35,329 nt of DNA from Zunongwangia pacifica (GTDB lineage: Bacteria > Bacteroidota > Bacteroidia > Flavobacteriales > Flavobacteriaceae): positions 1 through 35,329 of the forward strand of contig NZ_JAKHSK010000042.1 of NCBI RefSeq assembly GCF_023499215.1, written 5' to 3'. The translations under genes were made by a program, and so were the position numbers. The notes under the pieces were generated by a model. That model had not been told where the DNA came from. It saw only the letters and a list, made by a program, of their open reading frames with translations, and did not search any database. Below, piece after piece: positions 487-3,906 of the stretch (within the stretch, counting starts at the first letter, position 1; each line of letters starts with the position of its first letter).

Positions 487-3400
487 TTACCCAACAATAT
501 TTACAATCTTACCAGGAACGATAATAACTTTTTTAGGTGTTCTGCCGTCTAATTGTTTCTGAGTACGCTCGTCTGCCATTACCGTTTTCTCGATCTCATC
601 TTTACTCATATCCATTGGTAACTCCATCGTAAAACGCATTTTTCCATTAAATGAAATTGGATAATTTTTAGTGCTTTCTACTAAAAATTGCTCTTCAAAC
701 TCTGGATACGTAGCGGTTGAAATTGATTCTGAATGTCCCAACTTACTCCATAATTCTTCAGCTATATGCGGCGCATAAGGCGCAATAAGCACCGCTAAAG
801 GCTCTAAAACTTCACGGCTGTTACATTTTTGTGCACTTAACTCGTTCACGCAAATCATAAACGTAGATACCGATGTATTGAAGCTGAAATTCTCGATATC
901 TTCAGTGACTTTTTTGATGGTTTTATGCAATGTTTTTAAAGCATCTGCTGAAGCTTTCTCCTCAGAAACAAAAAAAGTCTGTTCCCCTCCTTCGGAGGGG
1001 TTAGGGGAGGAATAATATAATTTCCAAAGCTTTTTAAGGAAGTTATGCACTCCGGTGATCCCGGCGGTATTCCATGGTTTTGCCTGGTCGATAGGCCCAA
1101 GGAACATTTCGTACATTCTTAAAGTATCGGCACCAAAATCTTCACAAATATCATCTGGATTAACCACATTATATTTAGATTTCGACATTTTTTCCACCTC
1201 TCTACCTACAACATAAGCTCCGCTTTCTTCAGTAACAAACTCAGCATCCTTAAACTCTGGTCTCCAGTTTTTAAAAGCTTCAACATCTAACTCATCTGAA
1301 GAATTAACAAATTCTACAGGGATATGAGTATAATTTACAGGCATACCAAGAATCAATTCACCCTTATCAATTCTTTCTTTTAAGTTTATATCTACATCCC
1401 TGTCAATTATCTTTTCTAATGAATCACTTCCTTCAGCTAAAGTTTCAATGTATACTTCCTTTGGAATAAACACTAACTTCCTATCTACAATTACCTCTTT
1501 AGTAAACTTATTAATAATGGAATAATAAGTATAGTACCCAAAAGCACTGGTCCCAAGAATCATTCCCTGGTTGATCAGCTTTTTAAAAGGTTCTTCTACT
1601 TTTAAATATCCGCGATCTTTTAAGAATTTAGTCCAGAATCTCGAATATAGTAAATGCCCGGTGGCATGTTCACTTCCTCCGATATACAAGTCTACATTTT
1701 CCCAGTAATCTAATGCCGCTTCAGAAGCAAAAACCTCATCGTTCCCGGCATCCATATAACGGAATAAATACCAGCTACTACCAGCCCAACCTGGCATTGT
1801 GTTCAATTCTAAAGGAAATATATCCTCCCCTTCCCCCTCCAAAGGAGGGGCTACGACTTTATTTAATTTTCTATTCCAAAACCATTTCTTTGCGTTTCCT
1901 AATGGCGGCTCACCGGTTTCGGTTGGAAGATATTTTTCAACTTCTGGCAAATGCAATGGTAAATACTCTACATCAATCATTTGCGGCAAACCATTTACAT
2001 AATATACAGGAAATGGTTCTCCCCAATAACGCTGGCGAGAAAATACTGCATCTCGTAATCTATAATTGGTTTTTCCATAACCCGCGCCTATTTCTTCTAA
2101 TTTAAGAATCGCTTTTTGCAGTGCCTCTTTATATTCTAATCCGCTTAAAAAATCTGAATTTGCGATTACCGTTCCTTCTTTTCCGCTGTGTGCTTCTTCA
2201 GAAATATCAGCATTTTCAAAAATATCTTTAATAGGAATTTCAAAATGCTTGGCAAAATCATAATCACGCTGGTCGCCACATGGCACAGCCATTACCGCTC
2301 CGGTCCCATAGCCTGCCAACACATAATCTCCAATCCAGATCGGGATCGGTTCTTTGGTAAATGGATGCTCGGCATAAGCCCCGGTAAAAGCTCCGGATAT
2401 CGTCTTTACATCGGCCATTCGCTCACGTTCACTACGCTTTGCCGTCGCTTCGATATACGCTTCTACTTCTTCGCGCTGCGCATCCGTAGTGATTTCTTTT
2501 ACCAGATCGTGCTCTGGCGCAAGCGTCATAAACGTTACTCCAAAAATCGTATCAGGTCTAGTCGTGAACACCTTAATCCCCCTAGCCCCCGAAGGGGGAA
2601 TATTGCTTTCGTTTTCCTGATCTGAATAATCCTTTAATTGTGCTAAATTATTACTGATTTTCTCAAGAACAGTCTCAATCCCCCCTAAAACTTCCTCATT
2701 TTTAAATCTTAAAACTTCGAAACCGCTGTCTGCAAGAATTTTTGTTCGTTCTTCATCATATTCTTTAGTCTCCTTATGAATTCCGCCATCGACCTCAATC
2801 ACTAATTTCTTTGAAAGACAAACAAAATCTACAATAAAATCATCTATTAAGTGCTGTTGCCTAAATTTATAGCCGTCCAGTTGCTTATTTCTAAGTTGAG
2901 ACCATAGTGCGGCTTCTGCTTCGGTTGGATTTTTTCTATTTTCTTTTGCCTTTTCAATTAGAAGATGGGAGTTATTGCCTCCCGTCATATAACCGGGTTT
3001 TGCTTTCTCTTCCCCTTTGGGGAAGGATAGGATGGGGAATTCAACTATTGCCCCAACTGATTTTCCGATCCAGTTACGCTGACTTTCCTTTAAACTATCT
3101 GTCCAATCCAGCTTTTCCAAACCATTAAGCAAACGCTCTGCAAAAGCAGAAATCCGCATGCTCCACTGGGTCATTTTCTTACGAATTACCGGATAACCAC
3201 CACGTTCTGAAACGCCATTTATAATCTCGTCGTTTGCCAATACCGTTCCCAGTTGCGGACACCAGTTTACTTCGGTTTCAGCAAGATAAGTCAATCGATA
3301 TTTCAGTAAAATTCGTTGTTTTTCTTCGGAAGAAAATTTGTTCCAGGCTTCGGCTGAGAAATCCTCTATATCATCATCGCAAGCCGCTTTTACTCTAGTA

Positions 3401-3906
3401 TTTCCTTCCGCAGCGAAAATTGCTGAAAGTTCAGAAACAGGTCGGCTTTTATCAGCTTCCAGATCATACCAGGATTCAAAAAGCTGAATAAATATCCATT
3501 GCGTCCATTTGTAATATTCCGGATTACTAGTACGCACTTCCCTACTCCAATCGAAACTAAATCCAATTTTATCTAATTGCTCACGATATCTCGCAATATT
3601 ATCTTTGGTCGTGATGGCAGGATGCTGCCCGGTCTGGATCGCATATTGCTCTGCCGGAAGCCCAAAACTATCATAACCCTGAGGATGCAACACATTAAAA
3701 CCTTTATGGCGTTTGTAGCGCGCATAAATATCACTGGCAATATATCCCAGCGGATGCCCAACGTGCAAACCGGCTCCCGATGGATAAGGGAACATATCGA
3801 GTACGTAGTATTTTGGTTTCTCTGAGGAATTGGAGGCTTTAAAAGTTTGGTTTTCTGCCCAATACTTTTGCCATTTGGCTTCAATTTTGTTGAAGTTGTA
3901 GTTCAT
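487..3906 (-). CDS. leuS: Leucyl-tRNA synthetase with an inserted DUF559 domain
   Basis: A cytosolic class I synthetase that charges tRNA-Leu with leucine. HVGH (residues 48-51) is the HIGH signature and KMSKS (906-910) the second ATP signature. The CP1 editing domain carries TTRPDT (448-453) and GYGTGAVMAVP followed by GDQRDYDFA. The C-terminal anticodon-binding region is present. At 1139 residues it is roughly 200 longer than the usual 920-950 of Bacteroidetes LeuRS. The excess is a 154-codon block (about residues 290-443) with a complete DUF559 nuclease-like domain, between NWIGKSVGAIVEF and KVFTTRPDT at the start of CP1, plus two short repeat-encoded inserts near residues 686 and 966. No stop or frameshift breaks the frame, so the enzyme is probably functional. 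A TTG/TAnnTTTG promoter lies upstream; a hairpin follows the stop. Confidence 0.97.
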   Translation of the reverse strand: MNYNFNKIEAKWQKYWAENQTFKASNSSEKPKYYVLDMFPYPSGAGLHVGHPLGYIASDIYARYKRHKGFNVLHPQGYDSFGLPAEQYAIQTGQHPAITTKDNIARYREQLDKIGFSFDWSREVRTSNPEYYKWTQWIFIQLFESWYDLEADKSRPVSELSAIFAAEGNTRVKAACDDDIEDFSAEAWNKFSSEEKQRILLKYRLTYLAETEVNWCPQLGTVLANDEIINGVSERGGYPVIRKKMTQWSMRISAFAERLLNGLEKLDWTDSLKESQRNWIGKSVGAIVEFPILSFPKGEEKAKPGYMTGGNNSHLLIEKAKENRKNPTEAEAALWSQLRNKQLDGYKFRQQHLIDDFIVDFVCLSKKLVIEVDGGIHKETKEYDEERTKILADSGFEVLRFKNEEVLGGIETVLEKISNNLAQLKDYSDQENESNIPPSGARGIKVFTTRPDTIFGVTFMTLAPEHDLVKEITTDAQREEVEAYIEATAKRSERERMADVKTISGAFTGAYAEHPFTKEPIPIWIGDYVLAGYGTGAVMAVPCGDQRDYDFAKHFEIPIKDIFENADISEEAHSGKEGTVIANSDFLSGLEYKEALQKAILKLEEIGAGYGKTNYRLRDAVFSRQRYWGEPFPVYYVNGLPQMIDVEYLPLHLPEVEKYLPTETGEPPLGNAKKWFWNRKLNKVVAPPLEGEGEDIFPLELNTMPGWAGSSWYLFRYMDAGNDEVFASEAALDYWENVDLYIGGSEHATGHLLYSRFWTKFLKDRGYLKVEEPFKKLINQGMILGTSAFGYYTYYSIINKFTKEVIVDRKLVFIPKEVYIETLAEGSDSLEKIIDRDVDINLKERIDKGELILGMPVNYTHIPVEFVNSSDELDVEAFKNWRPEFKDAEFVTEESGAYVVGREVEKMSKSKYNVVNPDDICEDFGADTLRMYEMFLGPIDQAKPWNTAGITGVHNFLKKLWKLYYSSPNPSEGGEQTFFVSEEKASADALKTLHKTIKKVTEDIENFSFNTSVSTFMICVNELSAQKCNSREVLEPLAVLIAPYAPHIAEELWSKLGHSESISTATYPEFEEQFLVESTKNYPISFNGKMRFTMELPMDMSKDEIEKTVMADERTQKQLDGRTPKKVIIVPGKIVNIVG
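984..1010 (-). repeat. C/G palindromic repeat R1 inside leuS
   Basis: The hairpin arms are 984-990 (CCCCTCC) and 994-1000 (GGAGGGG), followed by the tail TTAGGGGAGG. Read on the minus strand this is tail CCTCCCCTAA then hairpin, the same direction as leuS. It encodes SSPNPSEGGEQT, an extra loop between KLWKLYY and the conserved TLHKTIKK region. Confidence 0.8.
1824..1850 (+). repeat. C/G palindromic repeat R2 inside leuS
   Basis: The tail CCTCCCCTTC is followed by arms 1834-1840 (CCCCTCC) and 1844-1850 (GGAGGGG) with an AAA loop. It is nearly identical to R1 but in the opposite orientation. In the leuS frame it encodes VVAPPLEGEGEDI, just before the conserved FPLELNTMPGWAG. Confidence 0.8.
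2577..2598 (+). repeat. C/G palindromic repeat R3, one boundary of the DUF559 block
   Basis: The tail TCCCCCTAG (2577-2585) precedes the hairpin CCCCC-GAA-GGGGG (2586-2598). It is translated as IPPSGARG immediately before KVFTTRPDT of the editing domain. Confidence 0.75.
3009..3038 (-). repeat. C/G palindromic repeat R4, other boundary of the DUF559 block
   Basis: The hairpin CTTCCCC-TTT-GGGGAAG (3009-3025) precedes the tail GATAGGATGGGGA (3026-3038). On the minus strand it reads as tail TCCCCATCCTATC then hairpin, the opposite orientation to R3. It is translated as PILSFPKGEE right after the LeuRS segment GAIVEF. Confidence 0.75.

Follow-up and report, generated by a model that had tools for sequence, protein, structure and literature searches.

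An in-frame, palindrome-bounded DUF559 nuclease unit in leuS of Zunongwangia pacifica: a candidate homing-like element in conserved genes of Bacteroidota

What is a nuclease domain doing inside the leucyl-tRNA synthetase gene (leuS) of Zunongwangia pacifica, and how did it come to be there? Where a homing element occupies an essential gene, the usual explanation is an intron or intein that splices it out, and in phages Vsr-like nucleases are described in association with inteins. We analysed a window of 35,329 nucleotides (contig NZ_JAKHSK010000042.1, the whole stretch under study), in which these features of the gene and its insertions bear on the question:

487-3906, minus strand: leuS, leucyl-tRNA synthetase, host of all inserts in frame (open frame of 1139 aa and family matches)
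2577-3038, minus strand: whole inserted unit of 462 bp, palindrome, DUF559, palindrome (alignment with congeners and sequence)
2644-2955, minus strand: DUF559 nuclease domain, aa 318-421 (Pfam, with profile and fold matches to I-Bth0305I)
3009-3038, minus strand: upstream palindromic unit, a C-rich outer tail followed by the inward hairpin CTTCCCC-AAA-GGGGAAG (sequence; pattern match 3012-3037)
2577-2600, minus strand: downstream palindromic unit, the inward hairpin CCCCC-TTC-GGGGG followed by a G-rich outer tail (sequence; pattern match 2578-2597)
1827-1847, plus strand: solo palindrome in frame in leuS, peptide KVVAPPLEGEGEDIF (pattern match and congener alignment)
987-1007, minus strand: solo palindrome in frame in leuS, peptide YYSSPNPSEGGEQTF (pattern match and congener alignment)

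The original prediction described a DUF559 domain inserted in leuS without loss of frame, an insert of exactly 154 codons at the start of the editing domain, and ends formed by inverted palindromes with hairpins facing in; each element is borne out, and the positions are correct to the base. The window leuS is a single open frame of 1139 aa with no stop, and its product, insert included, still passes the NCBI bacterial LeuRS model TIGR00396 (905 bits, cut-off 548). Pfam places DUF559 at aa 318-421 (E 3.5e-37), directly ahead of the editing domain at aa 442-602. The unit opens with TCCCC and closes with GGGGGA, and its 462 bp make 154 codons. One palindrome pattern fits both ends, with opposite orientations at 2578-2597 (+) and 3012-3037 (-), and with the upstream palindrome translated as PILSFPKGEE and the downstream one as PPSGARG. 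We read the palindromes as the ends of the unit, translated through as linkers.

The two solo palindromes, which the original prediction does not mention, are likewise in frame and absent from the orthologues: where the window leuS carries them, five congeners have (K/Q)VVSNDKID.. (1827-1847) and Y..NDQF (987-1007). The position of the 1827-1847 copy is also the site of a DUF559 unit in the LeuRS of another family (L312). Elsewhere in the gene, at about 1267-1560 (LeuRS aa ~783-880), the window has a longer, divergent loop, YYTYYSIINKFTKE...GMPVNYTHIPVEF, where four congeners have VYRLEGENKFVSK... and one (G002) a third version. Just downstream of leuS, at 391-439, lies a hairpin with 24-base arms that are 92% complementary, perhaps a terminator or another repeat.

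Six genomes of the genus, the window genome (G000) and congeners G001-G005, all have LeuRS and supply both filled and empty alleles. By alignment, a 160-residue version occupies the LeuRS hairpin in G000 and G004, and a 15-residue hairpin (for example HVDFKIQGTDHKVGV) stands there in G001, G002, G003 and G005; because 160 residues replace 15, the net gain is 145 codons. If the flanks of the 462-bp unit were joined, the hairpin would stay in frame but be shorter than in the empty alleles; some codons therefore seem to have been replaced and not purely added. At fourfold sites, G000 and G004 are identical at 48/52 positions in the insert, 64/96 in the left flank and 51/103 in the right flank (Fisher test, insert versus left flank p 5e-4, versus right flank p 5e-8), and dS (Nei-Gojobori) rises from 0.10 for the insert to 0.98 for the 200 leuS codons after it. 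The element therefore arrived at the leuS site well after the host genes had diverged. The right side of the insert has about 40 bases common to both filled congeners, by eye, with no clear co-conversion tract in windows further out, and no target-site duplication was established.

Such a gap is clear in two of eight chosen pairs, G000-G004 and G185-L099 (dS 0.53 in the insert, 1.17 in the host); in the remaining six, insert and host dS lie within about a factor of two of each other, in either direction. The reverse situation also occurs: the LeuRS of G148 and Leeuwenhoekiella marinoflava are 91% identical and their DUF559 domains 58%, and G207 and G373 share 88% of LeuRS and 55% of DUF559. 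The LeuRS site is refilled by differing nuclease lineages.

What moves is most clearly evident from a single metH frame in genome G219, which carries two DUF559 units at two sites, identical at 95/107 aa. The copies align over 418 bp, starting with AGCCCCCC, where the left palindrome has its outer edge, and ending with GGGGGGCT at the corresponding edge of the right one; the flanking DNA outside those 418 bp is unrelated. This pair points to palindrome, nuclease and palindrome together as the moving piece. In G382 only the second metH site is filled; in G399 the first is filled and a degenerate palindrome pair without a nuclease stands at the second. The mobile-unit reading of the original prediction holds, given the dS gap in the leuS pair and metH copies that are homologous out to the outer palindrome edges. 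Nor do the genomes match a domain carried by all close relatives with repeats absent or unrelated to DUF559: two of the six genus genomes are filled, the unit does have repeats at its flanks, and palindrome counts track DUF559 in the genomes compared.

Related units are widespread. The LeuRS row of one genome in the window's family, G036, equals that of Salegentibacter sediminis, and named hits were mostly Bacteroidota, in keeping with Flavobacteriaceae. DUF559 is present in 188 of 397 genomes of the family, and among the best 150 matches in these genomes 59 lie in frames of at least 250 aa and 50 in frames of at least 500 aa; for GIY-YIG, another small nuclease family used as a yardstick, 2 of the best 150 matches (149 genomes) lie in frames of at least 250 aa. 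GIY-YIG had been considered as a rival in-frame nuclease on the strength of one HsdR frame (L268 175-3315, genome G648, contig C27) that carries both GIY-YIG (aa 251-317) and a DUF559 unit (aa 443-547) in frame, and was set aside on that count. A phylum-wide draw, some family genomes included, gave DUF559 in 170 of 296 genomes, again with long frames. We examined the long frames and 40 short frames from the best 150 DUF559 matches, plus automatically given loci, and found 169 DUF559 domains, of which 139 were left after removal of identical ones (80 in-frame, 59 standalone or HemD-fused).

Across the phylum, related units stand in frame at two sites in LeuRS, at two sites in MetH and in further hosts. 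Pfam named, from one example each, MetH, IleRS, RecG, a UvrD-like helicase, HemD, histidinol dehydrogenase, an Eco57I-type methylase, HsdM, Type ISP, HsdR, the second LeuRS site and another UvrD-like helicase; the remaining members were assigned to hosts by shared motifs. The first LeuRS site is filled in Gelidibacter algens, Leeuwenhoekiella marinoflava, Flavobacterium rivuli and Dysgonomonas, among others, and at least 11 of 147 LeuRS genes in 149 genomes, paired by coordinates among the matches listed, adjoin a DUF559 match. RecG offers a parallel, with ten distinct filled genes that carry 163-166 residues at one turn. Among 30 loci found with a RecG query in 60 genomes, 26 have 18 conserved residues at that turn, one (G011) is filled, and three have 24-30 residues resembling remnants of the filled left edge. 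LeuRS and RecG thus both show one site occupied across different lineages and empty in relatives.

Several loci show smaller or terminal additions. The LeuRS hairpin of L198, L203, L134, L150 and others holds short in-frame peptides without a nuclease, such as MLKQVQHDKSERHSELDSESHH and VIASEAKQSH, some of which look repeat-derived, so the hairpin may be a general insertion hotspot. A palindrome-like peptide, SPPSEGLGE or APPSGESEG, lies just before the LHKTI motif in the LeuRS of L040, L045, L047, L063, L071, L072, L098 and L151, which makes a third recurrent LeuRS site. DUF559 is fused to the N end of HemD in L039, L050, L053, L059, L067, L068, L070, L076 and L091, and to the C end of histidinol dehydrogenase in L049 and L078; these fusions were identified by Pfam in L059 and L049 and by shared motifs in the others.

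The inserted domain has the marks of a maintained nuclease. The likely catalytic residues named beforehand, D360, E371, D373 and H377, are present in the window and kept in 100, 100, 97 and 95%, respectively, of 80 in-frame DUF559 domains. Codon comparisons indicate purifying selection on the nuclease, with dN/dS of 0.08-0.30 in 8/8 chosen pairs. A profile built on 40 LeuRS inserts finds the DUF559 structure 3hrl (3.1e-29) and I-Bth0305I, 3r3p (E 9.9e-7), and a predicted structure of the insert (pLDDT 73.6, core blocks 72-92) has the same two entries as its best folds in Foldseek (I-Bth0305I E 2.2e-4, TM 0.72 on target). The insert model was used alone, and a full-length LeuRS model (pLDDT 65.7, pTM 0.47) was set aside as too poor. 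For the window protein, the sister Pfam family MTES_1575 scored below its cut-off. Separate translation from an internal start is not favoured, the methionine at the domain start being unconserved and replaced by R, L or Y in some cases.

Nuclease lineages appear largely grouped by insertion site. In a tree of the 139 domains, the insertion-site label requires 11 changes, against a minimum of 9 and a shuffled mean of 71.5, and 0/200 shuffles were as low; in this tree, built by a quick method, 68/136 inner branches are open, the LeuRS label alone takes 5 changes, and units from both MetH sites group together. Within the LeuRS site, nuclease and host are partly decoupled. For 47 LeuRS inserts, the nuclease data (alignments of 106-109 columns only) reject the LeuRS tree and 20/20 sampled LeuRS bootstrap trees, with log-likelihoods 473 to 560 worse and p-AU at most 0.012, yet ten tip-shuffled trees on the same data are far worse still (1147 to 1278), which argues for a shared history together with much movement. 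Nuclease and LeuRS identities are correlated (Mantel r 0.43, permutation maximum 0.26), and with the tip-shuffle gap this suggests that much vertical descent remains. Bacteroidales LeuRS inserts, for example, partly group together in the nuclease tree. Horizontal spread independent of the host gene is therefore found alongside a persisting, partial vertical signal. A LeuRS tree was also built from 126 rows, of which 47 are filled, 49 are empty and 30 have small inserts, with L169 as a far outlier; on it the filled state changes 23 times, with 12 changes forced by well-supported branches; this figure is no rate, because the sample was partly chosen for being filled.

The palindromes also occur as dispersed repeats. 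The pattern CCCCN{3,13}CYCCNAAGGRG has five overlapping matches in the window, which make four distinct places. All lie within leuS and two of the places are solo copies; 100 shuffles had 0 matches. Raw matches in the genus were 19 in G000, 13 in G004, 3 in G002, 1 in G003 and 0 in G001 and G005 (reversed control 0 in all six), and distinct places number 15 in G000 and 8 in G004. The 26 bases of the window's left palindrome (3012-3037) are letter-identical to one in leuS of G041, which belongs to another genus. Among 50 hand-picked genomes, counted with relatedness uncontrolled, overlapping matches counted repeatedly and the units' own ends included, the median raw count was 9.5 in 20 genomes with in-frame DUF559, 2.5 in 10 with known standalone DUF559 genes only and 0 in 20 without DUF559 matches (first against last group, Mann-Whitney p 2e-7); 19/20 of the first group and 4/20 of the last had any palindrome. 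The reversed control gave 2 matches in G178, 1 each in G399, G030 and G342, and the remaining 46 genomes had none. Most solo palindromes are found between genes or at the edges of genes, and some are in frame, as in PurL.

The expectation that inverted palindromes flank DUF559 genes stood for 42/80 in-frame units by the strict two-ended inward pattern (LeuRS 22/50, MetH 11/11, RecG 9/10) but fell for standalone genes (1/50; control windows 0/1719). No unit fitted it in IleRS (0/2), UvrD-like (0/5), HisD (0/2) or HemD-fused (0/9) contexts. The strict CCC/GGG ends suit the MetH and RecG units and miss nearly all standalone genes, which have, by eye, another palindrome class, and flanks were for that reason also compared by alignment. 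At or above the 99th percentile of controls, 63/139 units (35/80 in-frame) had matching flanks in the inverted sense and 37/139 (10/80 in-frame) in the direct sense, with no inverted preference among standalone genes (25/49 each). Inverted pairs too close together for a nuclease lie in G399 (C1:507362/507637 and 3800871/3801011), G000 (C21:50789/50858 and C25:2093/2166) and G004 (C1:2646006/2646093); these narrow pairs, some at gene starts, look like non-autonomous derivatives.

Splicing modules were sought in the host frames. Pfam scans of 13 DUF559-bearing frames contained no Hint or intein family, and NCBIfam scans of three such frames (one of them among the 25 matches listed) no intein family. 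With Rfam, no intron family was found near the insert in the window region, where one lncRNA match was sub-threshold (E 0.89), or in five to six further host sources, whose sole match was a SAM riboswitch (L036 8645-8764, minus strand) in the locus of the double-unit metH of G219. With no intein or intron in the scanned frames, the unit seems to persist as a tolerated domain.

We consider it probable that the leuS insert is a homing-like, palindrome-bounded DUF559 (EDxHD-type, Vsr-like) nuclease element of ~0.42-0.46 kb that is tolerated in frame as a protein domain. From comparison of sequences, the unit boundaries, the in-frame placement, the later arrival at the same site, the two near-identical copies at two metH sites and the purifying selection that acts on the nuclease can be taken as established. 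Such a unit would insert in frame into conserved protein genes, at turns or domain edges, and its nuclease would be made within the host protein or by standalone kin. After DNA uptake or mating, the nuclease may cut an empty allele (or a palindrome), and repair by recombination may copy the unit into the cut allele, as in homing. Selection would retain in-frame copies only, at domain-tolerant places, and we propose that sites keep their own nuclease lineages for that reason. Rare off-target repair elsewhere could open new host genes, and loss of the unit could leave scars, the palindromes being either the recognised feature or what survives loss. By a slimmer margin of belief, we would extend this to a new class of mobile element, in which a palindrome-bounded EDxHD-type nuclease homes into and jumps between conserved genes in frame, persists unspliced as a tolerated domain at the protein surface, forms largely site-specific lineages across Bacteroidota (leuS, metH, recG, ileS, hsdR and others) and seeds solo-palindrome linkers.

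RAYT is thought to mobilise REPs, and a DUF559 protein might mobilise palindromes in the same manner, leaving solo copies trans-mobilised or left behind. We hold this REP-like transposition possible, with less confidence than homing. It would suit unit ends that are palindromes in the metH copies, the dispersal of the palindrome to 15 distinct places in the window genome (reversed control 0), the higher counts in genomes with in-frame DUF559 (medians 9.5 and 0, p 2e-7) and the narrow inverted pairs, and likewise the degenerate pair at the second metH site in G399. However, transposition alone does not predict that the same gene site is filled repeatedly and mostly by its own nuclease lineage, and the counts come from hand-picked genomes with relatedness uncontrolled, overlaps recounted and unit ends included. 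The likeness to REP-RAYT-REP drawn in the original prediction is apt as anatomy, the nuclease itself being no more than a possible mover of the repeats. That a RAYT (Y1 transposase) moves the palindromes and DUF559 is a passive passenger strikes us as unlikely. A Y1_Tnp match (E 0.001 or better) is present in 19/27 tested genomes, the window genome included, but there is none in G004, which shares the leuS unit and has palindromes at eight distinct places, or in G180, G156 and G360, with in-frame units; a RAYT is therefore unnecessary to explain the units, and the purifying selection on the nuclease, with its catalytic residues kept, also counts against a passenger.

Vertical inheritance of an ancient insertion, with many losses and no recent mobility, would account for the partial agreement of the trees, the partial grouping of Bacteroidales LeuRS inserts and the short stretches at 3/30 RecG loci, possible remnants of a lost unit. 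It is nonetheless very improbable, given that dS differs ten-fold between the insert and its host gene in the window genus, that near-identical hosts have divergent inserts (LeuRS 91%, DUF559 58%) and that one metH holds a second copy. Least probable of all, in our judgement, is that the domain has been domesticated and lends LeuRS a new function directed at nucleic acids. The kept active-site residues and purifying selection would agree with it, but a selfish nuclease accounts for that selection equally well, and the domain is patchy within one genus (2/6). A new LeuRS function is further disfavoured because related units occur in many unrelated proteins, which tolerance fits better than a shared function; the suggestion that the synthetase has gained a nuclease function finds no support here.

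The homing-like element resembles several known systems and differs from each. With I-Bth0305I, whose PDB entry 3r3p is labelled as a mobile intron protein, it shares a related catalytic domain, by profile and fold, and conserved acidic and histidine residues; with EDxHD homing endonucleases generally, recurrence at the same site of conserved genes and a spread that is partly horizontal. I-Bth0305I itself, a homing endonuclease of phage origin, has long regions that bind DNA and a target just short of 60 bp (PMC3943268). Whereas EDxHD homing endonucleases sit in self-splicing introns or inteins or are free-standing, the unit here is an in-frame fusion, translated through and bounded by palindromes. 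Inteins are similar in that they too interrupt a conserved gene in frame, at a recurrent site, and carry a nuclease, but no Hint or intein family was found in the scanned DUF559-bearing frames (Pfam 13; NCBIfam 3, among the matches listed). REP-RAYT systems likewise place a small enzyme gene between palindromes, with more palindromes elsewhere in the genome, and RAYT genes are flanked by GTAG repeats (PMC3733652); here, in contrast, the enzyme is Vsr-like, Pfam matches of the window unit were DUF559 and kin only, with no Y1/HUH domain found, and many units lie inside frames at recurrent sites. Rickettsia palindromic elements and other intragenic REPs place palindromes within protein genes in several species and, in the sections of PMC3733652 that treat them, come without a nuclease gene, whereas the palindromes here bracket one. 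Caulobacter VsrA has the same Pfam domain and is linked to cytosine methylation, but is encoded, as described in PMC12907096, by a gene of its own, whereas the window nuclease is an insert in another gene. In the open-licence full-text literature, a scope that leaves most subscription papers outside, no account of such units appeared in titles or abstract starts, and the titles and abstract starts of DUF559 papers there did not mention insertion in other genes.

A nuclease that apparently lives in aminoacyl-tRNA synthetases, RecG and methionine synthase as a tolerated domain would have found a further way to persist. Such units would supply protein evolution with newly inserted domains and would mark, as a natural catalogue, the places where essential enzymes tolerate insertion. 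They also suggest a function that can be tested for many DUF559 proteins of unknown annotation, and give palindromic repeats a nuclease-based alternative to RAYT.
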